Shown here piece after piece: positions 1 through 36,033 of a DNA stretch of 64,000 bases (positions are counted from its first letter, which is position 1; each line of letters starts with the position of its first letter). Origin of the DNA: an uncultured Bacteroidales bacterium (lineage in GTDB: Bacteria; Bacteroidota; Bacteroidia; Bacteroidales; FEN-979); assembly GCA_903837605.1 (NCBI GenBank), contig CAILVF010000029.1:1-64000 (forward strand), in the 5' to 3' direction. The notes below the pieces were generated by a model. It had not been told where the DNA came from and made no database searches. It worked only from the letters and a program-made list of their open reading frames with translations. A program made the translations under genes and the position numbers.

Positions 1-675
1 GTCTTTTTCAATTCCAATAACCTGTACTTTCGCCTTTTCCTTTTTCACTTTCTGCAAGGTTTTTTTCTCATCATTTTTTAACGCCTCCAGCATTCTTGCC
101 GCATCTTCCTTGCTTAGTTTCTTCTGATCCTGAGGCGGCTGGTTCTTCTGATCCTGCTTATCCTGGTCCTGTTTTTTCTGATCCTTTTTCTGATCCTGTT
201 TGTCTTTATTCTTCTTGTCCTGGTCCTTCTTTTGCTGATCCTGCTGTTTCTTCAGCATCATTTTTGCATATTCGAGGTTATATTTAGTGTCCAGGTCCGA
301 AGGGTTATTCATCAATGCATTTTTATAGGCGAGTATGCTTTTATCATACTGCTTGGCTTCAAGAAAGGAATTACCCATATTATGATAGACTTTGGCCTGG
401 ATATCCTTGTCCTGGTTTTTGCCTGCAAGTTCATTGTACATTTTGGCTGATTCCTCGAAATTTTTCTCCTCGTAAACAGCGGTCCCAAGGTTGAACTTCC
501 CCTTTACCGACTCCTTATTAATTTCAAGGGCTTTACGGTAATCTTTTTCGGCTTCTTTAAAGTTCCCCTTTTCGTACTGGTTGTTGCCTTTGCGTAAAAG
601 AGTATTTTCTTTCTGTGCAAAAACAGGAAAAGCCAGCATGAACAAAAGCAACAATGAAATCAGCTTAGTCTTCAT
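1..675 (-). CDS. batC: BatC-type TPR protein (3' end outside window)
   Basis: Last visible gene of the Bat operon. The start ATG is at 675-673 on the minus strand and the frame is open to base 1 (225 codons), so the stop lies just outside. A signal peptide (about residues 1-21, ending F-A-Q) is followed by TPR-like helices (about 25-125, with the pattern L-R-K-G-N-N-Q-Y-E-K-G). A Q/D/K-rich low-complexity stretch (about 130-175) leads to a charged tail. This is the usual BatC plan, and the tail looks nearly complete. The protein should be periplasmic and may assemble with the VWA proteins BatA and BatB. It follows batB by 9 bp. The function of Bat proteins is still poorly defined (aerotolerance or stress in Bacteroides). 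Confidence 0.85.
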   Translation of the reverse strand, partial: MKTKLISLLLLFMLAFPVFAQKENTLLRKGNNQYEKGNFKEAEKDYRKALEINKESVKGKFNLGTAVYEEKNFEESAKMYNELAGKNQDKDIQAKVYHNMGNSFLEAKQYDKSILAYKNALMNNPSDLDTKYNLEYAKMMLKKQQDQQKKDQDKKNKDKQDQKKDQKKQDQDKQDQKNQPPQDQKKLSKEDAARMLEALKNDEKKTLQKVKKEKAKVQVIGIEKD

Positions 676-684
676 AATTACAAA

Positions 685-1710
685 TCACCGGAACAGTTTA
701 ATATTTTTAATCCATTTTGTTTTGCGCTCAAAGACGAACAGGTCCAGTACAAGCATCAATAAAGCAAAGGCAGCAAAGAACTGGAAACGGCTTTCGAAAT
801 CAGAGAACTGTTTACTCTCAATATCTGATTTCTCAATCTTCTCCAGGTCGTCAAAGACCGTATTCAGGCCTGCATCAGAATTACTGGCCCTGACGTACAT
901 CCCTTTCCCAACGTTTGCGATCTCCTTGAGTGTCGTCTCATCCAGCCGGCTCATAATGGTATTGCCATCCTTGTCTTTCTTGTAGCCGATCTGGATATCA
1001 TCCTGAAATACGGGAATAGGTGCGCCTTCGGGGAGCCCCATCCCTATTGTATACAGTATGATCCCTGCTTTAGCTGCTGCTTCGGCCTGGTCAAGGACCT
1101 GTCCTTCATGATCCTCCCCATCGGTTATCAGTACAATTGCTTTATTATGTTTAGACTCCCCGAAACTTGATGCGGCAAGTTTTATTGCCTCTCCAATGGC
1201 AGTTCCCTGGGTCGGGACCATCCCTGTTGAAACCGTATTCACAAAAAGTTTTGCCGCAGCATAGTCGGTTGTGATTGGCAACTGGGTATAGGCTTTTCCT
1301 GCAAAAACAATAAGCCCGATGCGGTCGCCTTCCAGTTTATCGGTTAGTTTTGAAATGGCCTGTTTTGCGCGTTCAAGACGGCATGGCCTGATGTCCTGGG
1401 CGAGCATGGAATTAGAAACGTCGAGGCAGATCATCAGGTCAATTCCTTTTCTTTTCACTTTTTCGATCTTCGAACCTGACTGGAGATCGGCTAAAGCCAT
1501 AATCATTGCGGCAAGAGCGAGGGAATACAGAACGAATTTGACGATGGGTTTGGCGGTGGAATATTCCGGGGCAAGTATTTTAAGCAGTGAGTATTCGCCG
1601 TAAAGGTCCATCGACTTTTTCCGCCTGATCATAAACCATATGAACAAAGCTGATAAAAGCGGTATCAGGAGAAACGCAAAAAAGAAAACACTATGTGCAA
1701 ACCTGAACAT
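685..1710 (-). CDS. batB: BatB, VWA-domain membrane protein
   Basis: 341 residues. Hydrophobic segments at about 8-27 and 57-75 precede a von Willebrand factor A domain (about 88-290), and one membrane segment near the C-terminus (about 308-328) follows. The MIDAS metal site D-x-S-x-S is visible as D97-V-S99-N-S101, with the later T (T-x-G-T-A) and the I-T-D-G-E-D motif. The long-VWA, terminal-TM layout is that of BatB. The gene lies 9 bp downstream of batA and 9 bp upstream of batC, so the three are surely cotranscribed. A periplasm-facing VWA domain binding a protein partner through Mg2+ is the family expectation. The role in aerotolerance is inferred from Bacteroides. Confidence 0.93.
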   Translation of the reverse strand: MFRFAHSVFFFAFLLIPLLSALFIWFMIRRKKSMDLYGEYSLLKILAPEYSTAKPIVKFVLYSLALAAMIMALADLQSGSKIEKVKRKGIDLMICLDVSNSMLAQDIRPCRLERAKQAISKLTDKLEGDRIGLIVFAGKAYTQLPITTDYAAAKLFVNTVSTGMVPTQGTAIGEAIKLAASSFGESKHNKAIVLITDGEDHEGQVLDQAEAAAKAGIILYTIGMGLPEGAPIPVFQDDIQIGYKKDKDGNTIMSRLDETTLKEIANVGKGMYVRASNSDAGLNTVFDDLEKIEKSDIESKQFSDFESRFQFFAAFALLMLVLDLFVFERKTKWIKNIKLFR

Positions 1711-1719
1711 GCTGATTGA

Positions 1720-2712
1720 TTACGGTATGGTTTTTAAAACTGCGTATCTTACAAATCCTTCCAGGGCAAGTAAAATAAACGCGATGAGTATCAGGGGCAG
1801 AAACTCTTCTTTCTTTTTCCTGAATTCAGTCACATCTATCCTTGTCTTTTCCATTTTATCAATTTCCTTATATATCTCCCTTAACTTGGTGATATTCTGG
1901 GCCCTGAAATATTTTCCGTCGGTCATGCCCGAGATCTTTACCAGCAAAGGTTCGTCTATTTCAACTTTCATCTGCTGCAGCTGGATCCCGAAAGGGGTTT
2001 GAACAGGATAAGGGGCATACCCCATGGTTCCTATGCCAATCGTATAAATCCTGATACCAAAGAGTTTGGCAATTTCCGCTGCCGACAAGGGATCCACTGA
2101 ACCCATATTATTCACCCCGTCGGTAAGCAGGATGATGACCTTGCTAACTGCTTTGCTGTCTTTAAGCCGGCTGGCTGCCAGGGCTAAACCGTCGCCAAGT
2201 GCAGTGCCGTCATCTATCATGCCGCTTTTGATATCCATGAACAGGTTCTTCAATACTGCATGATCGGTGGTAATAGGGCATTGTGTAAAAGATTCCCCGC
2301 TGAAAATAACAAGGCCTATCCTGTCGTTCGGTCGGCCGTCAATGAAATCCATAGCTACATCCCTGGCCGCTTCAAGCCTGTCGGGCTTGAAATCCTGTGC
2401 CAGCATTGACCCGGAGATATCAAAAGCTATGACCAGGTCGATGCCTTCAACGTTAACCGACTGCCTGCTGAGGCTGGTCTGGGGCCTTGCCAGGGCGAGG
2501 ATCAGCAGCGCTATCGCCATCAGCCTGGTAACATACATTGCATTGTACAGATAATGCCTCCACTGAACATAGTCTTTACGGAAGCCGCGAATAGTACTAA
2601 CCTGGAGGACTGCCGGATTGATCTTTCTGCGGTAGAAATACCAAACCCCCAGTGCAGGAACTAACAGCAGCAGGAAAAGGTAACCCGGGTTCGCAAATGT
2701 CATTCCATGCAT
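1720..2712 (-). CDS. batA: BatA, VWA-domain membrane protein
   Basis: 330 residues. There are membrane segments at about 10-27 and 60-76, a VWA domain at about 90-290 with an intact MIDAS (D98-I-S100-G-S102) and the L-L-T-D-G-V-N-N motif, and a C-terminal membrane helix at about 304-322. It is a paralogue of the following batB, as is usual for the operon. Met1 and Met4 are both possible starts. The gene begins 5 bp after the BatD-like gene, so it sits in the middle of the moxR-to-batC operon. MoxR ATPases are thought to act as chaperones that insert metal or remodel VWA partners, which fits this pairing. Confidence 0.93.
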   Translation of the reverse strand: MHGMTFANPGYLFLLLLVPALGVWYFYRRKINPAVLQVSTIRGFRKDYVQWRHYLYNAMYVTRLMAIALLILALARPQTSLSRQSVNVEGIDLVIAFDISGSMLAQDFKPDRLEAARDVAMDFIDGRPNDRIGLVIFSGESFTQCPITTDHAVLKNLFMDIKSGMIDDGTALGDGLALAASRLKDSKAVSKVIILLTDGVNNMGSVDPLSAAEIAKLFGIRIYTIGIGTMGYAPYPVQTPFGIQLQQMKVEIDEPLLVKISGMTDGKYFRAQNITKLREIYKEIDKMEKTRIDVTEFRKKKEEFLPLILIAFILLALEGFVRYAVLKTIP

Positions 2713-2717
2713 AAACT

Positions 2718-3707
2718 CTACGCCTGAGGTTTTTGGTTTATCTGATTGGTTGTATTATCGTGATGCTGCAATGCAACGGTTCTCACAGAAAGGTTTACAA
2801 TTTCAATTCCTGTGTTCAGGGCATTTTCGTTTTCCTGCGGACCGGGCAGGGCTTTTGCAAATTTTACCATATCGGCCGTTTGCAATACCCGGTCAAGCTT
2901 TTCAAGGAGGGGCTTTGCAAATTCACCCTGGGCCTTAAGTGCTTCAACAATCTCATAAGTCGTGCTTTCCAGGGCAGGCACTGCATACCCTTCTTCAATA
3001 TAGGTTCTCAGGATACCGGTAAGTTCGCTGTGGTATTCTTTGACATTCCCCTGTTGCCAGAGCTTCCTGGTCCTGAGCTTTTCAAGGTCCTGCAAGGCTT
3101 TTTCATGAGGCAGCAGCTTCACTTTCGGCCTCAGCCGGATCAATGGTTCATTTTTCTTCCTTCTCCTTACATACCAGATGATCAAGAGAACAATAGCAAG
3201 TGCGGCAAGTGAGATCAGTATGTACGGCAAAACCTCAAGGAAGGTAATGGGAATATTTAAAGGCCCCTTGATGGGCTTGATAACATTGGTGGTGTCGACT
3301 TTGACCGTATGCACCATCAGCAAACTAAGTCCTGTGGATGAGGTTTGTAAGGTGGTGTCGGGAAATATCCTGTACCTGAATGGGATCTGGGGAATTGTAT
3401 AAAAGCCGGTATCGAAGCAGGTAAGATTGAGTTCCTGTGTAAGCGTGAGTGATTTCCTGTCCTTGGAATAGCTGCTGTCAACTTTTGAACGGCCGATAAC
3501 AATGATGTTGCCAAGAATTGTGTCGTTAAAAGCAGGCCATATGACGTGCGAACCTGATGGCCCCTCAAACCTGAGTTTCAGGCCAACATGATCACCTATG
3601 AGCATGGCTCCGGTATCAAGCCTGGCATTAACCTTTACTTCCTGGGAGTAGGAAGATGCTCCCAAAAGGAGTAGCATGACCAGGCCAGTGATGTGGATTA
3701 TTCGCAT
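2718..3707 (-). CDS. BatD/DUF4381-like exported membrane protein
   Basis: 329 residues from the ATG at 3707. A longer reading from 3761 would overlap the DUF58 gene and push the signal peptide inward. The signal peptide (about 1-20, ending S-Y-S-Q) is followed by a beta-rich extracytoplasmic domain (about 25-160), one TM helix (about 170-190, followed by R-R-R-K-K), and a helical cytosolic domain with L-P-H-E-K-A-L and Y-H-S-E-L-T-G-I-L-R-T-Y-I-E. That last pattern recurs in the Bacteroidota protein encoded between DUF58 and batA. The layout suggests a one-span adaptor linking the cytoplasmic MoxR/DUF58 pair to periplasmic Bat proteins. I infer that role from order alone. Confidence 0.75.
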   Translation of the reverse strand: MRIIHITGLVMLLLLGASSYSQEVKVNARLDTGAMLIGDHVGLKLRFEGPSGSHVIWPAFNDTILGNIIVIGRSKVDSSYSKDRKSLTLTQELNLTCFDTGFYTIPQIPFRYRIFPDTTLQTSSTGLSLLMVHTVKVDTTNVIKPIKGPLNIPITFLEVLPYILISLAALAIVLLIIWYVRRRKKNEPLIRLRPKVKLLPHEKALQDLEKLRTRKLWQQGNVKEYHSELTGILRTYIEEGYAVPALESTTYEIVEALKAQGEFAKPLLEKLDRVLQTADMVKFAKALPGPQENENALNTGIEIVNLSVRTVALQHHDNTTNQINQKPQA

Positions 3708-3711
3708 CTGT

Positions 3712-4587
3712 TTACCTTCTTGCACCCCGTTTTTTAAAAAGATTAATAAGCGGTTTAACATAATCCTGGTCGGTCCTGATCTTTACCCAGTCGACCCCGC
3801 TCCTTAAAAATGTGTCGTTAAGAAAAGCCTGGTGGTCGTCATTCCATTTTTTAAAGTATGCTCGCTGCCTGAAATCGGAAGAATCAACCCATTGTTCCAG
3901 GCCCGATTCAGCGTCTTTCACCCTGAGAAGGCCAACATCGGGCAGGTTTGTCTCCCGTTCATCAAAGATCTGAACAGCTATGATATCATGCTTCTTATTC
4001 GCGATCTTGATGGCATCCACGAAGTTATAGTCAAGAAAATCGGAAATGACAAATGTGCTGCAGCGCTTTTTTATTGCATTTGTAAGGAACCGAAGGGGTT
4101 CGGTCAGGTTCGTTCCCTGTTGGCCGGGTTTAAAATCGACCAGTTCCCTGATAATACGCAGGATATGTGACGGCCCTTTTTTCGGAGGAATGAATTTCTC
4201 GATAATATTGCTGAAGAAGATCACCCCTACTTTATCGTTATTCTGGATCGCGCTGAAAGCGAGGACCGCGGCAATCTCCGTGATCACTTCTTCTTTCAGG
4301 GTTTTCCTTGTACCGAAATGATTGGATCCGCTGACATCGATCAGGATCATGACCGTAAGTTCCCTTTCCTCATCAAAAATTTTAATATAAGGATGGTTGA
4401 AACGTGCAGTTACGTTCCAGTCAATATTCCTGATATCGTCTCCGAACTGGTATTCCCTCACTTCGCTGAAGGCCATACCCCTCCCTTTAAAGACCGAATG
4501 ATACTGTCCCGAGAATATCTGGTTTGACAGACCCCTGGTCTTTATCTCTATTTTACGGACCTTTTTAAAGAGTTCGGCGGATTCCAT
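3712..4587 (-). CDS. DUF58 domain protein
   Basis: 291 residues from the ATG at 4587 (MESAELFKK). The 20 extra upstream codons of the longest ORF are translated from an intergenic repeat and are rejected. The hallmark DUF58 stretch G-R-G-M-x-F-S-E-V-R-E-Y-Q-x-G-D-D-x-R-x-I-D-W is present, followed by a VWA-like fold with D-V-S-G-S. It has no membrane helix. DUF58 proteins pair with MoxR AAA+ ATPases, here encoded immediately upstream. In this operon the pair probably acts with the Bat VWA proteins on envelope integrity or oxidative stress. The start lies 68 bp after moxR, a gap filled by the repeat. Confidence 0.9.
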   Translation of the reverse strand: MESAELFKKVRKIEIKTRGLSNQIFSGQYHSVFKGRGMAFSEVREYQFGDDIRNIDWNVTARFNHPYIKIFDEERELTVMILIDVSGSNHFGTRKTLKEEVITEIAAVLAFSAIQNNDKVGVIFFSNIIEKFIPPKKGPSHILRIIRELVDFKPGQQGTNLTEPLRFLTNAIKKRCSTFVISDFLDYNFVDAIKIANKKHDIIAVQIFDERETNLPDVGLLRVKDAESGLEQWVDSSDFRQRAYFKKWNDDHQAFLNDTFLRSGVDWVKIRTDQDYVKPLINLFKKRGARR

Positions 4588-4592
4588 TATTT

Positions 4593-4648
4593 GGTGACTA
4601 GTGACTGGTGAATGGTGACTGGTGAATAATGACTGTTCACTGTTCACT
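4593..4648 (-). repeat. GTGACTGG-type short repeat in the DUF58 leader
   Basis: The + strand shows imperfect repetition of GGTGACTGGTGAATGGTGAC-like words ending in GTTCACTGTTCACT. Read on the minus strand it begins AGTGAACAGTGAACA. The same phrase, in the same orientation relative to the following gene, recurs at 55072-55134. It fills the gap between moxR and the DUF58 gene and is not coding. Confidence 0.8.
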
Positions 4649-4655
4649 TATTCGT

Positions 4656-5648
4656 TTAGGGTACTTCTACAGTATTTAAAATCTCATTAATAATATCTTC
4701 CGAAGTGATGTTCTCGGCTTCTGCTTCATAGGTCAGGCCGATGCGGTGGCGCATCACGTCATGGGCTACTGCACGGATATCTTCAGGAATAACATAACCC
4801 CTTCGTTTGATAAAAGCATAAGCCTTCGAAGCAAGCGCAAGGTAGATACTTGCCCTGGGGGAGGCTCCGTAACTGATCAGGCCTTCGAATTTTTTCAGTT
4901 TATAGTCGGCCGGGAAACGCGAAGCAAATACAATATCAGTAATGTATGTTTCAATTTTTTCATCGAGATACACTTCCCTTGCAACAGCTCTTGCCCTTAA
5001 AATATCTTCAGGTTTGATTATGGTGCTTGCAGCGGAGATTTCATTGCCGATATTCTGGCGGATGATCTGTTTCTCTTCTTTTTTATCAGGGTAACTGATA
5101 ATTACCTTCAGCATAAAACGGTCAACCTGGGCTTCGGGAAGAGGATACGTGCCTTCCTGTTCAATCGGGTTTTCCGTTGCAAGAACAAGGAAGGGTTCGG
5201 GCAGCATGAAAGTCTGGTCACCGATAGTCACCTGCCTTTCCTGCATTGCTTCGAGCAGCGCACTCTGGACTTTGGCCGGGGAACGGTTAATTTCATCCGC
5301 AAGGATAAAATTGGCGAAAATAGGTCCTTTCCTCACCTGGAATTCTTCTTTCTTCTGGCTGTAAACCAGGGTGCCGACAAGGTCGGCAGGAAGCAGGTCA
5401 GGCGTAAACTGGATGCGGCTGAACTTCGCTTCAATAATACTGGCAAGGGTTTTGATGGCCAGGGTTTTTGCCAGGCCGGGAACTCCCTCCAGCAGTATAT
5501 GTCCGTTGGCCAATAACCCGATCAGAAGACGTTCGATCATATGTTTCTGTCCTATGATCACCTTATGCATTTCCATAGTGATCATATCCACGAAAGCGCT
5601 TTCCCTCTGGATCCGCTCATTCAGGGCTTTAATATCCGTCTCAACCAT
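4656..5648 (-). CDS. MoxR-family AAA+ ATPase
   Basis: 330 residues from the ATG at 5648. The longest ORF starts at 5672, but that codon lies inside the -7 box at 5670-5677 and cannot be on the transcript. Walker A is G-V-P-G-L-A-K-T, Walker B is F-I-L-A-D-E-I-N-R, and the sensor/P-E-A-Q-x-D-R-F region (A-T-E-N-P-I-E-Q-E-G-T-Y-P-L-P-E-A-Q) is typical of MoxR. The C-terminal lid has the S-P-R-A-S motif. It is the first gene of the moxR-DUF58-BatD-like-batA-batB-batC operon and should act in the cytoplasm as a chaperone-like ATPase on VWA partners. Confidence 0.93.
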   Translation of the reverse strand: MVETDIKALNERIQRESAFVDMITMEMHKVIIGQKHMIERLLIGLLANGHILLEGVPGLAKTLAIKTLASIIEAKFSRIQFTPDLLPADLVGTLVYSQKKEEFQVRKGPIFANFILADEINRSPAKVQSALLEAMQERQVTIGDQTFMLPEPFLVLATENPIEQEGTYPLPEAQVDRFMLKVIISYPDKKEEKQIIRQNIGNEISAASTIIKPEDILRARAVAREVYLDEKIETYITDIVFASRFPADYKLKKFEGLISYGASPRASIYLALASKAYAFIKRRGYVIPEDIRAVAHDVMRHRIGLTYEAEAENITSEDIINEILNTVEVP

Positions 5649-26789: not shown

Positions 26790-28939
26790 CCCAGGATGTA
26801 AGAAAAGGCATAATGACGAGAGTATATGTAGTATACCTGGGTATACTGCTTTTCGGCCTTGCTGTACTGGGGAGGGCTTTTTATATCCAGAATTTCGAGA
26901 AAACGGAATTGCTGGAAATGGCTAAAAAGCAGGAGATGCAGGTTTTTCCGATTGAAGCGATCCGTGGAAATATCCTTTCCGACGACGGGACTTTACTGGC
27001 CGTCTCTGTTCCGATCTTTGAACTGAGGATGGACCTGGTCGCCGATTCGCTTACCGATGAGGTGTTTAAGAACGGCGTTGATTCGCTTGCAATTTGCCTG
27101 GCAGGGATTTACAAGGACAAATCGCCCATGCAGGTTAAAGACAAGCTATGGGAGGCCCGCAGGAACCAGGAGCGTTATTTCCTTATCAAGCGCGACGTCA
27201 CCTATCCCGAACTGAAAAAGATTCGCAGGTTCCCCATCTTTAAAAGAGGCAGGTTCAAGGGCGGCTTGATGGTGATCCCCCAGTGGGAACGCGAGCTCCC
27301 ATATAAATCCCTTGCCCGCAGGATCATAGGATATGAAAAGGGCGAAGGGGATCAGAAAATATATGTGGGCCTTGAAGGCAAATTCACGAAACAGCTCGAA
27401 GGCATAGGTGGCTCCAGGATGATGCGTCGCGCCGGCGGGAGCAACTGGATGCCTGTCGACATTGAAAGCCAGGTTGAACCCCAGAACGGCCTGGATATAG
27501 TAACTACCATCGACATCGAGCTGCAGGACCAGTCGGAAGCAGCATTAAGGAAAGAACTAATCGCCGACAGTGCCGATCACGGCTGCCTGGTAGTCATGGA
27601 AGTGCAGACCGGCTATGTTAAGGCCATGGTGAACCTTGGAAGGACGAAAAAGGGAACTTACGAAGAAGTATTTAACTATGCCATTGCCGAGGCTAATGAA
27701 CCAGGTTCCACATTCAAGCTTGCCTCATTCCTGGTTGCTCTGGACGACGGCAAGGTCGAACTCAACACGCCTATCCAGGTTGGCAACGGTATTGTTTATT
27801 TCGCCGGCCATAAGATCCAGGATTCACATCCCCCCACCTCTTCAGTCTATACAGCCCAGCAGGTCTTTGAAAAATCCTCGAACGCAGGCACCGCAAAAAT
27901 GATCTATGGCATCTATTCGGCTGAACCGCAGAAATACATCGACGGGCTTTACCGGCTTGGCCTGAACAAACCTCTAAACCTTCAGATCGATGGGGAACGG
28001 CCACCCTACATCAAGAATACCAAAAGCAAATACTGGTCAGACCTTTCACTCCCCTGGATCGCGTATGGTTATGAAGTCGCCCTGGCTCCTATCCACCTTA
28101 TTACCTTATATAATGCCATCGCAAACAATGGCAAGATGGTCAAGCCTCTTTTTGTAAAAGAGATACTCAGGAACGGCAAGGCGATTCAAACGTTCAAACC
28201 GGTTGTGCTGAATCCCCAGATCGTTTCTCCCTCGACTGTTCAGAAAGCCAAGATCCTGATGGAAGGCGTTGTCCTGCGGGGCACGGGAACAGCCATCGCC
28301 AGCCCCATTTACAGGATCGCAGGTAAGACCGGAACTGCGCAGCTCGCCCAGAATAACAGGGGGTATAACCAGGGAACAAAGAACGTCAGGTACAAAGGTT
28401 CTTTCTGCGGCTTCTTCCCCGTGGAAAACCCAAGGTATACTATGATGGTGGTCATTGTGGACCCAAAAAAAGGAAAGTATTACGGGGGCGCCGTTGCCGC
28501 CCCGGTGTTCAGGCAGATTTCCGACAGGCTTTACTCAAAGCAGGAAGACATCCTTTTCCCATTCAAAAAAGACAGTGTAAACAGCCTTTTGCCATTTGCG
28601 AATGCAGGCATGCAGTCAGACCTCAATGAAGCTTACAGCACACTCGGTTATAATATTAATAAGGTGGATGTTCGTGCACTCTGGACCCAGGCTGTTCCAA
28701 ACGAAAACAAGATCATTTTATACCCCCAGGCCGTATCCAGAAATCTCATGCCTGATGTGAGCGGGATGGGTCTGAAAGACGCCTTATTCCTGCTTGAACA
28801 AATGGGCCTGAATGTAGTTGTGAATGGCCGTGGGGCGGTGGTAAACCAGAGTGTAAAGCCGGGAACGCTTGTCAATAAAGGCATGCCGGTAGTACTTGAC
28901 CTTGAGGGCCCGAAAGCTAAAGCTAAAACCCAGACATGA
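26786..28939 (+). CDS. ftsI: FtsI (PBP3-type) division transpeptidase with PASTA domain
   Basis: 717 residues. A short cytosolic start and one TM helix (about 12-32) precede the non-catalytic dimerisation domain (R-G-N-I-L-S-D-D-G-T near 57-66). The transpeptidase domain has the three penicillin-binding motifs: S-T-F-K (catalytic Ser, near 307), S-S-N (near 360) and K-T-G-T-A (near 515). A single C-terminal PASTA domain (about 650-712, M-P-D-V-S-G-M-G-L-K-D-A) is usual for Bacteroidota. It crosslinks septal peptidoglycan together with FtsW. Its ATGA overlaps join it to ftsL and murE. Confidence 0.96.
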   Translation: MTQDVRKGIMTRVYVVYLGILLFGLAVLGRAFYIQNFEKTELLEMAKKQEMQVFPIEAIRGNILSDDGTLLAVSVPIFELRMDLVADSLTDEVFKNGVDSLAICLAGIYKDKSPMQVKDKLWEARRNQERYFLIKRDVTYPELKKIRRFPIFKRGRFKGGLMVIPQWERELPYKSLARRIIGYEKGEGDQKIYVGLEGKFTKQLEGIGGSRMMRRAGGSNWMPVDIESQVEPQNGLDIVTTIDIELQDQSEAALRKELIADSADHGCLVVMEVQTGYVKAMVNLGRTKKGTYEEVFNYAIAEANEPGSTFKLASFLVALDDGKVELNTPIQVGNGIVYFAGHKIQDSHPPTSSVYTAQQVFEKSSNAGTAKMIYGIYSAEPQKYIDGLYRLGLNKPLNLQIDGERPPYIKNTKSKYWSDLSLPWIAYGYEVALAPIHLITLYNAIANNGKMVKPLFVKEILRNGKAIQTFKPVVLNPQIVSPSTVQKAKILMEGVVLRGTGTAIASPIYRIAGKTGTAQLAQNNRGYNQGTKNVRYKGSFCGFFPVENPRYTMMVVIVDPKKGKYYGGAVAAPVFRQISDRLYSKQEDILFPFKKDSVNSLLPFANAGMQSDLNEAYSTLGYNINKVDVRALWTQAVPNENKIILYPQAVSRNLMPDVSGMGLKDALFLLEQMGLNVVVNGRGAVVNQSVKPGTLVNKGMPVVLDLEGPKAKAKTQT

Positions 28940-30396
28940 AGAAACTTAGCCTGATAGTACCTCAACATCTGGTCCTCGAAAGCAGGGGTGATATGGATAT
29001 TATGATCGGCTCACTGCAGTTTGACTCAAGGCAGGTCAGGCCGGGCGATGTGTTTTTTGCCGTCAGGGGCAGTGTTTCCGACGGCCATGATTTTATCGGC
29101 ATGGCTATAGAGAAAGGAGCTTCAGCCATTGTTTGTGAATCCTGCCCCGTGGAAATGTCCGGCTTTATTACATGGATCAAGACTGCCGACAGCGCTTTGA
29201 TGCTTGGCGAGATGGCTTCGGCCTTTTATGATAACCCTTCCTTCAAACTTCAATTGGTCGGGATAACAGGCACCAACGGGAAGACAACCACCGTTACGCT
29301 TCTTCACAGCTTGTTTACGGGACTCGGGTACAAGGCAGGCCTGCTCAGTACGATTAAAAACATGGTGGGAGAGCGCGGGGTCCCTGCCACCCATACTACT
29401 GCCGACCCTGTCCAGATCAATCGCCTGCTGAGTGAAATGTGCGAGGAAGGCTGCGAATACTGCTTTATGGAAGTAAGTTCGCATGCGGTCGACCAGAAGC
29501 GTATTGCCGGCCTCAGGTTCAGGGGCGCGATTTTTTCAAACCTGACGCATGACCACCTCGATTACCATAAGACATTTGATGCATATCTTAAAGCAAAGAA
29601 AGGCTTTTTTGACGGCTTGCCCGAATCGGCCTTTGCCCTGGTAAACAAGGACGACAAAAACGGCCCCGTCATGCTCCAGAACACCAGGGCTGCAAAATTC
29701 ACATACAGCCTTCAATCCATGGCCGATTTCCGCTGCAGGATTGTCGAAAACGAGTTTTCCGGCCTTCATCTCAGCATTGACGGACAGGATGTATGGTTCA
29801 GGCTCATAGGATCTTTCAACGCATACAATATCCTCTCGGTGTATGCTGCTGCGGTTTTGCTCGGCCAGGAATCTTTCAGGGTGCTCACCCTTCTCAGCAG
29901 CATGGGCCCAGTCGAAGGCCGGTTCAACTCCATCAACGGTCCGGGTAACATCACAGTAATCGTTGATTACGCCCATACCCCGGATGCTTTGAAGAATGTT
30001 CTGGAGACCATCAACGACATCCGCCATCATAATGAAAAACTCATTACGGTTGTCGGGGCGGGAGGTAACAGGGATGCCACGAAAAGACCGGTCATGGCAA
30101 GAATTTCAGCCAGTCTCAGCGACCAGCTTGTCCTGACCTCCGACAATCCCAGGTTCGAGGAACCTGAAGCCATCCTGGAAGAGATGATGAAAGGTATTGA
30201 AATTACCGATGCCCGCAAGGTACTCGTGATTGCCGACCGCAGGCAGGCTATTAAGACAGCCGTAACCCTGGCCGGGGAGAACGATATCATTTTGGTTGCA
30301 GGCAAAGGACATGAGACTTACCAGGAGATCAAGGGAGTGAAATACCCCTTTGATGACAGGGAAATAGTGAAAGAATTATTTTCTATTAAACAATAG
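28936..30396 (+). CDS. murE: MurE, UDP-MurNAc-tripeptide synthetase (meso-DAP type)
   Basis: 486 residues, three Mur-ligase domains. The uridine-binding N-domain has D-S-R-Q-V-R-P-G-D-V-F-F-A-V-R-G, the ATP loop is G-T-N-G-K-T-T-T near 113, E-V-S-S-H-A follows, and the C-domain has Y-A-H-T-P-D-A-L and D-N-P-R (near 399). D-N-P-R is the specificity motif for meso-diaminopimelate, so the wall is DAP-type. The enzyme adds the third stem residue in the cytosol. It is intact, unlike the murD remnant two genes downstream. Confidence 0.97.
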   Translation: MKKLSLIVPQHLVLESRGDMDIMIGSLQFDSRQVRPGDVFFAVRGSVSDGHDFIGMAIEKGASAIVCESCPVEMSGFITWIKTADSALMLGEMASAFYDNPSFKLQLVGITGTNGKTTTVTLLHSLFTGLGYKAGLLSTIKNMVGERGVPATHTTADPVQINRLLSEMCEEGCEYCFMEVSSHAVDQKRIAGLRFRGAIFSNLTHDHLDYHKTFDAYLKAKKGFFDGLPESAFALVNKDDKNGPVMLQNTRAAKFTYSLQSMADFRCRIVENEFSGLHLSIDGQDVWFRLIGSFNAYNILSVYAAAVLLGQESFRVLTLLSSMGPVEGRFNSINGPGNITVIVDYAHTPDALKNVLETINDIRHHNEKLITVVGAGGNRDATKRPVMARISASLSDQLVLTSDNPRFEEPEAILEEMMKGIEITDARKVLVIADRRQAIKTAVTLAGENDIILVAGKGHETYQEIKGVKYPFDDREIVKELFSIKQ

Positions 30397-30399
30397 CCT

Positions 30400-31653
30400 A
30401 TGTTGTACTATTTATTTACATGGCTGCATAAAGCGTTCAATGTCCCGGGGGCGGGCCTGTTCCAGTATATTTCGTTCAGGGCTGCATTTGCGCTGATCAC
30501 TTCGCTGTTCATTTCGATGATCATCGGGAAAAGGCTGATCGGGTTCCTCAGGAAAAAACAGGTTGGAGAAACGATACGTGATCTTGGCCTGACAGGACAG
30601 GTTTCCAAACAGGGAACGCCTACCATGGGCGGACTCATCATCCTTGCTGCGATCCTGGTACCCACCCTGCTCTTCGCCAAGCTTCATAACATATATATCA
30701 TCCTGATCCTCGTTGCAACAGTATGGCTTGGTTTGATCGGGTTCCTCGATGATTATATAAAGGTGTTCAAAAAAGACAAGAAGGGATTGCCGGGCAAACT
30801 GAAGATACTGGGCCAGGTCGGGCTGGGTCTGATTGTTGGATTTACCATGTATTTCAGCGACAAGGTTGTGATCAGGGAAAAGACAAGGAACCAGGCTTAT
30901 GTTTCATCACAGGATATTTTCAAGGTTGAAAATGCATCTGAAAGGATCAGCCCTTTTTCGAGGACCGAGATCAAGTCGACAAAAACCACCATCCCGTTCA
31001 TCAAGCATAACGAGTTCGACTACAGCTGGCTCATTTCCTGGATCAGCCCGGGAGCAAAGTCATGGACTTGGCTTGTATTCATTCCTATTGTCATTTTTAT
31101 CATCATAGCGGTTTCCAACGGGGCCAATCTCACCGACGGGCTCGACGGACTTGCCAGCGGGACTTCAGCCATTATCGGGATAACGCTGGGAGTACTGGCG
31201 TATGTGTCGGGTAACACAAATTTCGCCGATTACCTCAACATCATGTATATCCCGAATACTGGTGAGCTGGCGATCTACATTGCAGCTTTCGTAGGGGCCT
31301 GTATAGGGTTCCTCTGGTATAATTCTTACCCTGCCCAGGTTTTCATGGGCGATACCGGCAGCCTTGCCCTCGGGGGCATCATCGCTGTTTTCGCGATCAT
31401 CATCCGCAAGGAAATCATGATCCCGATTTTCTGCGGGATCTTCCTGGTAGAGAACCTTTCGGTGGTAATGCAGGTGAGTTATTTCAAGTATACAAAACGA
31501 AAATTCGGGGAAGGCCGGAGGATATTTAAAATGTCACCCCTCCACCATCATTACCAGAAGCTGGGGTACCATGAATCGAAGATCGTAATGAGGTTTATGA
31601 TCGTGGGGATCATGCTGGCGGTACTGACGATAGTAACATTAAAGATAAGATAA
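30400..31653 (+). CDS. mraY: MraY, phospho-MurNAc-pentapeptide transferase
   Basis: 417 residues with about 10 membrane helices. It transfers phospho-MurNAc-pentapeptide to undecaprenyl phosphate, making lipid I. Signatures: T-P-T-M-G-G-L near 71, the acidic pair F-L-D-D-Y-I-K near 115, [10 protein letters not shown] near 246, [12 protein letters not shown] near 310, and the H-H-H-Y loop (P-L-H-H-H-Y) near 388. The insertion before the central D-G-L-D region (about 155-200) is typical of Bacteroidota. It starts 3 bp after murE. An 80-bp repeat-containing gap separates it from the murD remnant. Confidence 0.97.
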
Positions 31654-31660
31654 GAGAGAA

Positions 31661-31700
31661 GGCACTAGGTACCAGGCACTAGTACCCAGTAACAGGTAAC
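31661..31700 (+). repeat. Short repeat at the missing part of murD
   Basis: Imperfect repetition of GGCACTAGGTACCAGGCACT followed by AGTACCCAGTAACAGGTAAC. It starts 8 bp after the mraY stop and sits exactly where the first two domains of MurD should be encoded. Confidence 0.75.
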
Positions 31701-31733
31701 AAAAAAAATAACATATCACTAAAACACAAAACC

Positions 31734-32282
31734 ATGACCCTAGAATCCCTGGCATTACAAGGAAATACGAATGTATACGACAATCTGGCGGCTACCGTTT
31801 CAGGTCGGATCCGTGAGGCCCGGAAGGCCTGTTTCAGGGAATGGTTCGCCGATTTCGGCAATACCGAACACAGGATGGAATTCGTAGCCAACATTCATGG
31901 TATCGAATTCATAAACGATTCCATGTCGGTAAGCTTAAACGGCGCCTGGTTTGCACTTGAAACCATGTCGAAACCGGTCATCTGGATAGCAGGGGGAGGA
32001 AGCTCGAATGAAGAGCTTGAATTCCTCAAAAAGCTTATAGAAAAGAAAGTCAAGGCCATTATCTGCCTGGGTCCGGGGAATGAGTCCATCCATGAGTCTT
32101 TCGCTGACTCTGAAATTCCGATAGCCGATACGTATACCATGGCCGAGGCTGTTGAAGCCGCGTATTACCTCGGGAGGAAAGGCGATGTGGCTTTATTTTC
32201 GCCGGGTTGCAAAGAGGATGCGATCTTCGACAGCCATGAAGCCAGGGGTATTGCTTTCAGAAATGCCGTAAAGAACCTTTAA
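31734..32282 (+). CDS. MurD C-terminal remnant (Mur ligase domain 3 only)
   Basis: 182 residues, against about 440 for MurD. It aligns with the end of the central domain (L-A-L-Q-G-N-T-N-V-Y-D-N-L-A-A) and all of domain 3. The uridine-binding and ATP-loop domains are absent, and only 80 bp separate it from mraY. E-H-R (45-47) and N-D-S (61-63) remain. The N-D-S-K-A-T-N signature has become N-D-S-M-S-V-S, and S-P-A-C-A-S-x-D reads S-P-G-C-K-E-D. The frame is open throughout, so it is either a recent wreck that kept its frame or a maintained non-catalytic domain. D-glutamate ligation must be done by a MurD elsewhere or by another enzyme. Confidence 0.85.
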   Translation: MTLESLALQGNTNVYDNLAATVSGRIREARKACFREWFADFGNTEHRMEFVANIHGIEFINDSMSVSLNGAWFALETMSKPVIWIAGGGSSNEELEFLKKLIEKKVKAIICLGPGNESIHESFADSEIPIADTYTMAEAVEAAYYLGRKGDVALFSPGCKEDAIFDSHEARGIAFRNAVKNL

Positions 32283-32291
32283 GAGATTTGT

Positions 32292-33503
32292 ATGGCCAAC
32301 AACACGTTTAAGAACATCAAAGGCGATAAGGTGATATGGATAGTGGTTGTCATTTTATCGATATTCTCATTGCTGGCTGTCTACAGTTCAACCGGGACTC
32401 TTGCCTATAAAAAGCAGCACGGGAATACCGAATATTATCTTATGAAACACCTGCTCATCCTGGGTTTTGGATTCGGGCTGATGTACCTCACCCATTTGAT
32501 AAAATACACTTATTTTTCAAGGATCTCGCAGATCGGGCTGATCCTGACCTTCCCGTTGCTTGCTTTCACACTTGTTTCGGGCACCAATCTTAATGAAGCG
32601 AACCGCTGGCTTACGGTCCCTATCGTCAACCTGACCTTTCAGAGTTCCGATATGGCAAAACTCTTCCTTATTATGTACCTGGCCAGGGTGTTGAGTAAAA
32701 AGCAGGAGCTTGTTGAGGATCTGCGGAAAGGATTCCTGCCTGTGATCCTGCCTGTGATCGCGGTCACCGTATTGATTTTGCCTGCGAACTTTTCCACGGC
32801 AGCCATTTTATTTGTCACCTGCCTGGTACTGATGTTTATTGGCCGTATCAGCCTTAAATACATTTTCTCGCTTATCGGGCTGGGGATTGTTTCGGTAGTC
32901 ATGATTTTTGTAATCGCCATTGTTTTCCCTCATTTATTCCCCCGGGGTGAAACCTGGGTTAAACGTGTTGATCATTTCATCCATGATGAAAAGGCCAGTG
33001 CCGATGCCACCTACCAGGTTGACCAGGCTAAGATCGCTATCGGGTCAGGAGGGGTGTTCGGCAAATCCCCGGGAAAGAGCACACAGAGGAATTTCCTTCC
33101 CCACCCCTATTCTGATTTCATTTTCGCAATCATAATTGAAGAATACGGGCTCATAGGGGGGAGCTTTGTGATGCTGCTTTACCTGATATTGTTTTTCAGG
33201 GTGATCAGGATTGCCGGGAAATGCCAGGGGAATTTCGGCGCCCTGCTTTCGCTGGGGATAGGATTCAGCATGGTGTTCCAGGCGATGATCAATATGGCTG
33301 TGGCTGTGAACCTGTTCCCTGTGACAGGACAGACTTTGCCCCTGATCAGTATGGGCGGGACTTCAATCTGGTTTACCAGCATTGCCATAGGGATTATTTT
33401 AAGCGTAAGCAGGATGACTGAAATCGACACAAGGAACGGAACCGAGGTGGAAATACTTACCGATCATGGCGCTAAAGAAATAGGAGACCTGGTTCCGGCT
33501 TAA
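32292..33503 (+). CDS. ftsW: FtsW, septal peptidoglycan polymerase (SEDS family)
   Basis: 403 residues with about 10 membrane helices. SEDS signatures: L-A-V-Y-S-S-T-G near 27, the extracytoplasmic loop A-N-R-W-L near 112 (N-E-A-N-R-W-L), Y-Q-V-D-Q-A-K-I-A-I-G-S-G-G-x-x-G-K-S near 240, and F-I-I-E-E-Y-G-L-I-G-G near 280. It polymerises lipid II and partners with FtsI encoded upstream. It starts 9 bp after the murD remnant and continues the operon to murG. Confidence 0.95.
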   Translation: MANNTFKNIKGDKVIWIVVVILSIFSLLAVYSSTGTLAYKKQHGNTEYYLMKHLLILGFGFGLMYLTHLIKYTYFSRISQIGLILTFPLLAFTLVSGTNLNEANRWLTVPIVNLTFQSSDMAKLFLIMYLARVLSKKQELVEDLRKGFLPVILPVIAVTVLILPANFSTAAILFVTCLVLMFIGRISLKYIFSLIGLGIVSVVMIFVIAIVFPHLFPRGETWVKRVDHFIHDEKASADATYQVDQAKIAIGSGGVFGKSPGKSTQRNFLPHPYSDFIFAIIIEEYGLIGGSFVMLLYLILFFRVIRIAGKCQGNFGALLSLGIGFSMVFQAMINMAVAVNLFPVTGQTLPLISMGGTSIWFTSIAIGIILSVSRMTEIDTRNGTEVEILTDHGAKEIGDLVPA

Positions 33504-33512
33504 ATTATTCAG

Positions 33513-34634
33513 ATGACGAAAATTATTATCAGCGGAGGAGGTACAGGGGGGCATGTGTTCCCTGCTATTGCTATTGCTAATGCCATCAGGGCAAAGCTCG
33601 CCGATGCTGATATCCTGTTTATCGGGGCCAGGGGGAAGTTAGAAATGGAGAAAGTCCCGGCAGCCGGTTACAGGATCGAGGGGCTGACCATTGCGGGCTT
33701 GCAGAGAAAATTAAGCTTGAAGAACCTGGTTTTCCCGTTTAAACTTTTAAGCAGCATGTTCAGGGCAAGGAAACTCGTTTCAGATTTTGGACCTGATGTT
33801 GTGGTCGGGGTCGGGGGATATGCTAGCGGGCCGGTTTTAAGGACTGCTGTCGCCATGAAGATCCCGGCCCTGATACAGGAGCAGAACTCGTTTCCCGGCA
33901 TCACCAACCGCATGCTGGCGGGTAAAGTCCAGAAGATCTGCGTTGCCTATAAAGGGATGGAGAAATATTTTCCGAAGAAGAAACTGGTACTTACCGGAAA
34001 CCCGATCAGGCAGGACCTGACCGGGTTAAGCGGGAAAAGGCATGAGGCTGTGGATCATTTCGGACTGGCTGAAAACAAGACTACAATTTTAGTGATTGGC
34101 GGAAGCCTGGGGGCAGGCACAATAAATCAAAGTGTCATGCAATGCTTGATCAGCGGCAATCCCGGCGGGTCTGTTCAATGGCTCTGGCAATGCGGAAAGT
34201 ATTATTACGAAAAACTCAGGGAAGAACTTTCCCATGCAGGGATAAGCAACGAACGGGGGGATGTGAAACTCCAGGCCTTTATCGACCGCATGGACCTGGC
34301 CTATTCAGCTGCCGACGTGGTGATTTCCAGGGCCGGGGCTATTGCAATCTCGGAATTATGTGCATGCGGGAAACCGGTCATACTGATCCCTTCTCCAAAT
34401 GTGGCCGAGGACCACCAGACAAAAAATGCGATGGCGCTTGTTGAGAATAAAGCGGCTGTTATGATCAGCGACAAGGATGCAAAAGAGAAACTCGGGGGTT
34501 CACTTGCATTACTGATCAATGATGCGCCCCTGCAGGAGGAACTGAAGCGAAACATAAGGACTATGGCGGCTCCGGATGCAGCGGACAGAATCGCCTCAGA
34601 GGTACTGGGATTAATTAAAACAGTAAAGGAATAA
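33513..34634 (+). CDS. murG: MurG, lipid II synthase
   Basis: 373 residues, GT28 with GT-B fold. The enzyme adds GlcNAc from UDP-GlcNAc to lipid I at the inner face of the membrane. Signatures: the first G-loop G-G-G-T-G-G-H-V-F-P near 8, the second G-V-G-G-Y-A-S-G-P near 94, the third G-G-S-L-G-A near 192, and the acceptor/donor site S-R-A-G-A-I-A-I-S-E-L near 272 with K-P-V-I-L-I-P-S-P near 288. Position between ftsW and murC is standard. The start lies 9 bp after ftsW. Confidence 0.97.
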   Translation: MTKIIISGGGTGGHVFPAIAIANAIRAKLADADILFIGARGKLEMEKVPAAGYRIEGLTIAGLQRKLSLKNLVFPFKLLSSMFRARKLVSDFGPDVVVGVGGYASGPVLRTAVAMKIPALIQEQNSFPGITNRMLAGKVQKICVAYKGMEKYFPKKKLVLTGNPIRQDLTGLSGKRHEAVDHFGLAENKTTILVIGGSLGAGTINQSVMQCLISGNPGGSVQWLWQCGKYYYEKLREELSHAGISNERGDVKLQAFIDRMDLAYSAADVVISRAGAIAISELCACGKPVILIPSPNVAEDHQTKNAMALVENKAAVMISDKDAKEKLGGSLALLINDAPLQEELKRNIRTMAAPDAADRIASEVLGLIKTVKE

Positions 34635-34641
34635 GCAACAA

Positions 34642-36033
34642 ATGAAACCGCAGGAGCTTTCATCGGTATATTTTCTTGGGATAGGCGGGATCGGGATGAG
34701 CGCCCTGGCCCGGTATTTCCTTCACCTGGGTGCAGCGGTCAGCGGTTATGATAAAACGCCTACAGCATTGACCCGTCAGCTTGAGCTGGAAGGAATGAAA
34801 ATCCATTTCGGGGATGATCCGGCACTCATCCCGTTGAACACTGAACTTGTGATATACACCCCGGCCATCCCGAAGGACAATAAAGAATTAAACTTCATCC
34901 TTAAGAAAAAGATCCCTATGATGAAGCGTTCGGAGGTGCTCGGGTTGATCTCTTCCGGCTATTTTACCATAGCTGTCGCCGGCACCCACGGGAAGACCAC
35001 AACCTCCATGCTGGTAGCTCATATCCTGAAAAGTGCGGGCATCCCCCATATTGCATTCCTGGGAGGCATTTCAAAGAATTACGGAACCAATTTCCTTATT
35101 GAAACTTCAGGTCCCGCGGCTCCCGTATGTGTTGTTGAAGCTGACGAATTTGACCGTTCCTTTCTGCAGCTTGCGCCCGATATTGCCATTGTCACATCAG
35201 CCGATCCCGACCATCTCGACATTTATCATACGCATAAGGAGATGCTTGCTTCATTCGAAGAGTTCACGGGGAAGATAAGAAAAGGAGGTTCCCTGGTCAT
35301 GAAAGCCGGAGTTGGGCTAAAACCCCGGGGGCAATCGGCTTACAATGTTTTTTCCTATTCCCTGGATAAAAAGAAGGCTTCGGCGCCTACGGGGTCTAAA
35401 GGATTTAAAGCAGGGGGTTTTGGTATAAGTAAGGGTGTATACCATTATGATTTCTGCAGTGCTAACGATGTTTGGAAAGACCTTGTGCTGGGATTGCCGG
35501 GATTGTTCAACCTTGAAAATGCCCTTGCCGCCAATGCCGCTGTCTTCCTCATGGGACTGAGCCAATCGAAAGTTGCCAGGGCGATGAAGTCATATAAGGG
35601 GGTTGTGAGGAGGTTTGATTTCCAGGTGAAAAAGCGGGGGTTCGTGTATATCGACGACTATGCCCATCATCCCGAAGAACTGAGAGCCTGCATTGAAGCG
35701 GTAAAAGAGATGTATCCGGGTCAAAGGATCACAGGTGTTTTCCAGCCCCATTTGTATTCAAGGACCCGCGACCTGGCTTCAGAATTTGCAGTGAGCCTCG
35801 ACCTTCTCGATGAGATCGTACTGCTTGACATTTACCCCGCAAGGGAGAAACCGATAAAAGGTGTAAGCAGTGAACTTATCCTGGAAAAACTGAAAACGGA
35901 GAATAAAATACTGATTGAAAAAGATAAACTGTTGAATTACCTCAAAAAGCTTAAACCGGAGGTCCTGCTGACACTCGGGGCAGGCGATATAGACCAGCTG
36001 GTGCCATCTGTCAGAAAAGCATTTGCAAAATGA
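34642..36033 (+). CDS. murC: MurC, UDP-MurNAc-L-alanine ligase
   Basis: 463 residues, all three Mur-ligase domains present. The N-terminal G-I-G-G-I-G-M-S near 14, the ATP loop A-G-T-H-G-K-T-T-T-S near 115, E-A-D-E-F-D-R-S near 166, and the C-terminal Y-A-H-H-P-E-E and F-Q-P-H-L-Y-S-R-T are all intact. It adds L-alanine to UDP-MurNAc, the step just before the MurD reaction. Its integrity makes the loss of murD nearby more remarkable. Its stop overlaps ftsQ (ATGA). ddl is not between murC and ftsQ here. Confidence 0.97.
   Translation: MKPQELSSVYFLGIGGIGMSALARYFLHLGAAVSGYDKTPTALTRQLELEGMKIHFGDDPALIPLNTELVIYTPAIPKDNKELNFILKKKIPMMKRSEVLGLISSGYFTIAVAGTHGKTTTSMLVAHILKSAGIPHIAFLGGISKNYGTNFLIETSGPAAPVCVVEADEFDRSFLQLAPDIAIVTSADPDHLDIYHTHKEMLASFEEFTGKIRKGGSLVMKAGVGLKPRGQSAYNVFSYSLDKKKASAPTGSKGFKAGGFGISKGVYHYDFCSANDVWKDLVLGLPGLFNLENALAANAAVFLMGLSQSKVARAMKSYKGVVRRFDFQVKKRGFVYIDDYAHHPEELRACIEAVKEMYPGQRITGVFQPHLYSRTRDLASEFAVSLDLLDEIVLLDIYPAREKPIKGVSSELILEKLKTENKILIEKDKLLNYLKKLKPEVLLTLGAGDIDQLVPSVRKAFAK

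Follow-up and report, generated by a model that had tools for sequence, protein, structure and literature searches.

A Mur-ligase domain in another use is already known from MurT/GatD, in which MurT has retained its ATP-binding ligase core and works with a glutaminase partner. It has also been proposed that Mur ligases form a complex with MraY and MurG in the cytoplasm, and MurD, MurE, and MurF of T. maritima were reported to bind MurG and MreB (available text of PMC6420597). A third related system is the MurD2-MurL pathway of Xanthomonas, Stenotrophomonas, some Alphaproteobacteria, and rare actinobacteria (PMC8788868; PMC5808125). According to the available text of PMC8788868, MurD2 of X. oryzae has Glu197 and Arg358 at the positions of D182 and K348 of E. 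coli MurD, reverting both residues switches the enzyme to D-Glu, and E. coli MurD with the K319T change can use L-Glu. The available text of these two pathway papers does not list Bacteroidota or mention a reduced dcw MurD, and in the open-licence PMC literature that we searched we found neither a MurD C-domain standing alone nor MurL described from Bacteroidota.

The window is a stretch of 64,000 nucleotides from the metagenome-assembled genome (MAG) of an uncultured Bacteroidales bacterium (G000). At the murD position of its dcw cluster is an ORF of 182 codons with zero internal stops (31734-32282; this and all window features below are on the + strand), with mraY (30400-31653) upstream and ftsW (32292-33503, starting 9 bp past the ORF) downstream. 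We label this C-domain-only MurD ORF MurD-C: it corresponds to a stand-alone MurD C-terminal domain preceded by the last part of the central domain. TIGR01087 (the NCBIfam MurD model) matches it from model position 263 to 440 of 441 (E 5.8e-34; 117.9 bits, under the curated cut-off of 211.95) and leaves positions 1-262 unmatched, and Pfam reports only Mur_ligase_C (31.4 bits, cut-off 28.4). The UDP-binding domain and most of the ATP-binding domain are missing; the GKT/S loop, E157, H183, and K198 are gaps in all eight MurD-C proteins of the window's genus (g1). The 80-bp spacer between mraY and MurD-C (31654-31733) contains GGCACTAG twice, and because the MurD match begins at 31722, there is no trace of the lost domains in it. 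Within the remaining domain, the DSKATN of canonical MurD is replaced by DSMSVS (codons D62-S67, 31917-31934), so that K319 is lost while D317 and S318 are kept. SPGCKED (codons S156-D162, 32199-32219) stands where canonical Bacteroidales MurDs mostly have SPACASF or SPCCASF, with S415 and L416 changed to E and D. A sequence-only reading of the window had described a murD cut to its C-terminal domain, without the uridine and ATP-binding domains, with both altered motifs and with no stop or frameshift, among otherwise intact Mur enzymes. Each of these points was borne out: K319, S415, and L416 are replaced in all eight genomes of the genus, and murE (28936-30396), murG (33513-34634), and murC (34642-36033), as named from sequence and gene order, are long open ORFs of 486, 373, and 463 aa.

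An AlphaFold2 model of MurD-C, built with 38 aligned C-only proteins, had a pLDDT of 71.4 and a pTM of 0.62. The top solved structures found by Foldseek with this model were MurDs, the first being P. aeruginosa MurD (7u35; E 4.2e-7, TM 0.63 over the query). MurD-C shares the homology and fold of the C-domain with canonical MurD, besides its place between mraY and ftsW. In contrast, its low score, the missing N-terminal and central domains, and the loss of catalytic residues from the C-domain suggest that it would not act as a canonical MurD ligase. MurT/GatD is likewise a Mur-ligase domain in another use, and the Foldseek match to it was weak (6gs2, E 0.13), but MurD-C lacks the ATP-binding ligase core.

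We ran the MurD model against 61 genomes (that of the window plus 60 relatives), 37 of which (G000-G036) belong to the window's family. A C-domain-only MurD ORF occupies the mraY-X-ftsW position in 35 of the 37, and the two exceptions are a genome that is 69% complete (G029) and one whose contig begins inside ftsW (G036). At all of the loci inspected (the 35 family loci plus G037, G039, and G041), ftsW is the next gene and mraY comes before, although for G037 and G041 only part of mraY lies on the inspected stretch. (In the loci of G010 (L016) and G004 (L010), mraY is in two separate pieces, from a frameshift or an assembly error.) Counted from the first ATG, 37 of 53 measured C-only ORFs from the family and the order are 182 aa long (range 170-199), and they lie −4 to 81 bp from ftsW. 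In some genomes, the profile match extends slightly upstream of the ORF start across stop codons, but the ORFs are open from a conserved Met onward. Identity to the window's protein is 81-98% within the genus and 47-57% elsewhere in the family. Relatives whose murD in this position is full length were found only in other families; the sequence-only reading had regarded such relatives, together with premature stops in this copy, as a sign of misassembly or simple decay. Among the best 80 named database records, six have an ORF of less than 330 codons at the locus, including one that is cut at its end.

MurD-C is under purifying selection. The median pairwise dN/dS within g1 is 0.064 (28 pairs, range 0.018-0.137), and the medians for four other genera are 0.084 (g2, one pair), 0.082 (g3), 0.087 (g4), and 0.089 (g5). 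These are Nei-Gojobori estimates with synonymous distances near saturation (28 of 66, 7 of 10, and 5 of 10 pairs were usable after the saturation filter in g3, g4, and g5), so the values are rough though far below 1. They are above those of the neighbours MraY (0.031-0.052) and FtsW (0.022-0.043) and below those of the full-length MurD2 discussed below (0.093 in g1; 0.130 in g4, from two usable pairs). With selection of this kind and an intact ORF in 35 of 37 family genomes, MurD-C is not a pseudogene.

To describe what has been lost, we compared 24 catalytic or ligand sites across classes of MurD. (D182, K319, and K348 were placed by alignment to E. coli MurD; for the other sites we presume the E. 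coli numbers, and we presume the catalytic roles.) All 24 sites are intact in the 30 MurDs examined from 76 genomes with MurI, save for one A414S, and in the 22 untruncated dcw MurDs from genomes with MurL, save at N271 (kept in 20 of 22) and A414 (21 of 22; one A414S). In contrast, H267 is missing from all 54 C-only proteins. In the family outside g1, K319 is kept in 11 of 27 proteins, K348 in 3, and S415 in all 27; S415, F422, D317, and H301 are each retained in 26 or 27. Genus g1 has gone further, with K319M, T321V, N322S, K348S/T, S415E, and L416D in all eight genomes.

These losses are not spread evenly over the domain. Among 49 C-domain sites that are at least 95% conserved in 52 full-length MurDs, 37 are kept by half or more of the 35 family C-only proteins, and the 12 that are kept by less than half are H267, N268, N271, K319-A-T-N322, the pair of loop residues of which K348 is the last, A414, and two more (positions 38 and 116 of the window's protein). 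We take most of the 12 to be active-site positions; we know of no catalytic role for positions 38 and 116. Conversely, R30, P81, and W84 are present in 35, 34, and 34 of the 35 family C-only proteins, as compared to fractions of 0.67, 0.77, and 0.73 in other MurDs. The concentration of loss at catalytic sites supports the view that MurD-C is a pseudoenzyme that would have kept its fold and surface. Some C-only proteins are highly diverged, scoring only 48.2 (G051), 50.4 (G107), and 69.7 bits (G115).

Of the 37 family genomes, 34 (all except G000, G014, and G029) encode a full-length MurD elsewhere that scores over the cut-off. A MurL-like gene lies directly upstream of it in all 17 of the family loci inspected and beside it in 22 of 23 loci overall; the exception is G037, which has MurL on another contig. 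The MurL model NF041275 matched two family members with E values of 2.6e-73 (247 bits) and 1.7e-71 (241 bits); three proteins scored 241-247 bits against a cut-off of 700 that was drawn for Xanthomonadales only. With a home-built MurL profile, we found MurL homologues in 34 of 37 family genomes (partial in G024) and, again, not in G000, G014, or G029. MurI over the cut-off was found in none of the 37; in six, matches below the threshold reached 43 bits at most. In 20 of 20 aligned proteins (of 23; 14 from the family), the second MurD has E190, I336, and R363 at the positions that align with D182, K319, and K348 of E. coli MurD. It thus has the Glu and Arg residues, the pairing with murL, and the lack of MurI that are expected of MurD2. 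Because the L-Glu-type residues occur together with MurL and without MurI, this family likely adds L-Glu by MurD2 and then epimerises the product by MurL. The likeness to the described pathway (available text of PMC8788868 and PMC5808125) extends to the adjacency of the two homologues. The genes murL and murD2 are adjacent and co-directed, with an overlap of a few bases in L045 (3558-6297), and the same arrangement is seen in matching parts of L046-L063, L070, L072, and L073; they are likely an operon. Their neighbours are yqgE, which NCBIfam named in L045, and a gene identified by eye as that of a LysM glucosaminidase.

The window's own MAG is one of the genomes in which profile searches found neither a match to MurL nor a MurD over the cut-off, the latter as the sequence-only reading had implied. 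When the 11.2-kb murD2 locus of G004 was compared to contig C64 of G000, query positions 6-4789 matched with 87% identity, up to the 3' flank of murD2. C64 ends 91 bases past this flank, in a simple repeat, and the rest of the query had only short repeat-like matches in G000. In other words, G000 has the downstream neighbours but lacks, in one block, murD2, murL, and everything past them. Since this block is missing at a contig end, an assembly gap is the simplest reading, although a true loss of murD2 and murL is possible. Short repeats (L085 1-130; L048 4733-4859) are scattered over many contigs and occur at the break beside murD2; they may have caused it.

To see how far this arrangement extends, we used a sample of 129 Bacteroidales genomes from 123 genera. 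MurL was found in 46 and MurI over the cut-off in 76; no genome had both, and seven had neither (G000, G051, G111, G124, G153, G161, and G162). The MurI genomes have a MurD over the cut-off in 75 of 76 cases, the exception being G053 (70% complete). Among the 46 MurL genomes, the dcw MurD is untruncated in 22 (including G048, where it runs off the contig), C-only in 19, and cut at a contig end in three (G088, G131, and G142); none was found in G113, whose dcw genes look dispersed, or in G056, where we found no dcw locus. The C-only form was present in 19 of 44 resolved MurL genomes and in 0 of 75 MurI genomes among the matches listed (E ≤ 1e-32; Fisher p = 2.9e-10, which ignores kinship and counts the three MurDs cut at contig ends as untruncated), and 19 of the 21 C-only genomes in the order sample have MurL. 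We left out a C-terminal MurD piece from a MurI genome (G042) that is 99% identical over 99 residues to a long MurD, which indicates one gene on two contig ends. Another MurI genome (G102) has two MurD matches at E 1e-32 or better, and the full-length one is among the matches listed. The 22 MurL genomes with an untruncated dcw MurD (G048, G049, G062, G063, and 18 more; L069-L071, L197-L216) do not have MurI, and this MurD has its D-Glu-type residues intact alongside MurD2-MurL. A candidate source of D-Glu, the D-amino-acid aminotransferase TIGR01121, was over the cut-off in only one of 129 genomes (G108, a MurI genome) and matched more weakly in 56, including some MurL genomes; among controls, 1 of 14 reached the cut-off. 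Outside the order, MurL was found in 0 of 296 genomes of the phylum, in a sample without any known positive.

One genome without MurL or MurI deserves separate mention. G051 (98% complete) has a diverged C-only MurD of 170 aa in its dcw cluster, and profile searches found no MurL, MurI, or MurD over the cut-off. If real, G051 has kept MurD-C without MurD2, which favours a role with dcw proteins over one as a MurD2 subunit. This genome also encodes a MurC-like ligase away from dcw, and inspection by eye showed a tandem pair of FtsZ-like genes behind ftsA (L193, L237, and L078). We considered whether the ligase, on contig C3, is Mpl, but NCBIfam scored it higher as MurC-like (250.8 bits, cut-off 335), and given this ligase we dropped the idea that G051 lacks MurC.

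How often did the truncation arise? Parsimony gave 9 changes between the untruncated and C-only states on a FastTree phylogeny of MraY and FtsW (103 taxa), 11 on a quick IQ-TREE phylogeny of the same proteins (81 taxa), and 6 on the tree of the C-domain itself. Considering well-supported branches alone, only one change is forced, and the AU test does not reject a single clade of the 30 C-only rows, G051 being excluded (p = 0.32), so we do not claim repeated origin. Whether it had one origin or several, the domain is retained over great distance. The start of the C-only gene also has a counterpart in longer genes. ATG is at the conserved start site in 49 of 54 C-only genes, and the same Met is encoded by ATG inside the untruncated murD of 21 of 22 MurL genomes and 24 of 30 MurI genomes. 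The 20 nt before this internal Met are A-rich in the 22 murDs from MurL genomes (on average at the 81st percentile of the gene, p = 2.4e-6) but not in the 30 from MurI genomes (53rd percentile, p = 0.66; difference p = 0.0028), although these p-values ignore kinship and are overstated because the genes are related. We regard the A-rich stretch as a lead towards a possible internal translation start and no more. It is conceivable, though we doubt it, that murD in Bacteroidales would yield both the ligase and a separate C-domain, from the internal start, with a non-catalytic role in wall synthesis. In lineages that switch to MurD2-MurL, the ligase portion would then be shed, maybe on several independent occasions, with precisely the C-domain ORF retained.

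What does MurD-C do? We propose, with somewhat more confidence than doubt, that the old dcw murD was cut down to a selected pseudoenzyme C-domain whose most likely role is to dock the proteins that assemble wall precursors in the cytoplasm. The MurD2-MurL route would likely have made the ligase activity of the dcw MurD dispensable, and the old gene would have lost its UDP-binding domain together with most of its ATP-binding domain. The remainder forms a separate ORF, presumably translated, whose start is a Met that used to be internal; that it is a pseudoenzyme held by selection is supported by the low dN/dS, its presence in many families, and the loss of catalytic sites. MurD-C would dock the products of the flanking genes (MraY, FtsW, MurG, and other Mur ligases), which is the part that the C-domain of MurD would already play in a Mur complex. 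The docking role is plausible because Mur ligases of T. maritima are reported to bind MurG and MreB; in the available text of PMC6420597, however, the Mur ligases are full enzymes, whereas here we have a bare C-domain. The sequence-only reading had offered, as one option, that the domain was kept for another role such as a scaffold: the retention is supported, and the scaffold is what we infer. A point against the proposal is that 22 MurL genomes have an untruncated and largely intact dcw MurD, which a simple story in which MurD became useless does not explain. The faster evolution of MurD-C than of MraY and FtsW, the strong divergence of some C-only proteins, and the scores of the MurL homologues, far under the Xanthomonadales-only cut-off, also count against it, and the rate comparison described next gave it no partner.

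MurD-C might instead be a subunit of MurD2 or MurL, as C-only MurDs are found only in genomes without MurI, mostly together with MurL, and a first comparison of evolutionary rates (18 genomes, five genes) tied MurD-C to MurD2 (0.70) and MurL (0.63). But this signal disappeared once five control genes were added (14 genomes, 10 genes; −0.07 for MurD2 and −0.25 for MurL). The best values were then 0.51 for MurE and 0.47 for FtsW, below the 0.68 of an unrelated pair (FtsW and a 914-aa protein), and leaving out g1 (28 pairs) gave 0.42 for MurD2, 0.57 for FtsW, and 0.53 for rnhB, so that rate covariation among these 10 genes and 14 genomes pointed to no partner. MurD2 is also full length with a C-domain of its own, the MurD-C gene stays in dcw and away from murL-murD2, and no MurD2 or MurL was detected in G051, so we consider a subunit unlikely. 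The retention of S415, F422, D317, and H301 outside g1 would fit a ligand sensor that adjusts wall synthesis and has kept its binding of glutamate or a nucleotide; this seems quite unlikely, as the pocket is rewritten in g1 (S415E, L416D, K319M, and K348S/T in 8 of 8), yet dN/dS there is 0.064.

The sequence-only reading had suggested that a second murD took over and that the remnant is decaying. There is a second MurD in the relatives, but it looks like MurD2 beside MurL and not like a plain duplicate. The progressive loss of ligase residues, the high divergence in G051 and G107, and the profile matches that cross stops upstream of the ORF, which resemble old coding sequence, would suit a gene on its way out, but dN/dS is 0.064-0.089 in five genera, the place is constant, and the length is nearly constant in far-apart families; decay is very improbable. 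We give just as little credence to the idea that what counts is just the DNA or the process of translating it, for operon spacing or for translational coupling to the nearby ftsW (−4 to 81 bp away), since it is the amino acids that are under selection and distant families have retained many of the conserved non-catalytic residues. Finally, the lack of a full-length MurD in the MAG could hint at a misassembly or at a split gene with its other half elsewhere. Misassembly or chance is ruled out by the same ORF in the same place in 34 other family genomes, most of which have a full MurD elsewhere. Similarly, the five other MurD-model matches in G000 are in ORFs of 446-884 aa, with no N-terminal-only piece among them, and we see next to no prospect that this explanation is right.

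Under the docking proposal, an essential wall enzyme that has been reduced to a conserved non-catalytic domain would split the structural role of MurD from its chemistry, and the long-suspected cytoplasmic Mur complex would become directly testable through one small protein. The MurD2-MurL route is indicated in roughly one in three of the Bacteroidales genomes sampled (46 of 129), a group that is absent from the list in the available text of the pathway papers, and the mutual exclusion of MurL and MurI is without exception in the 129-genome sample.
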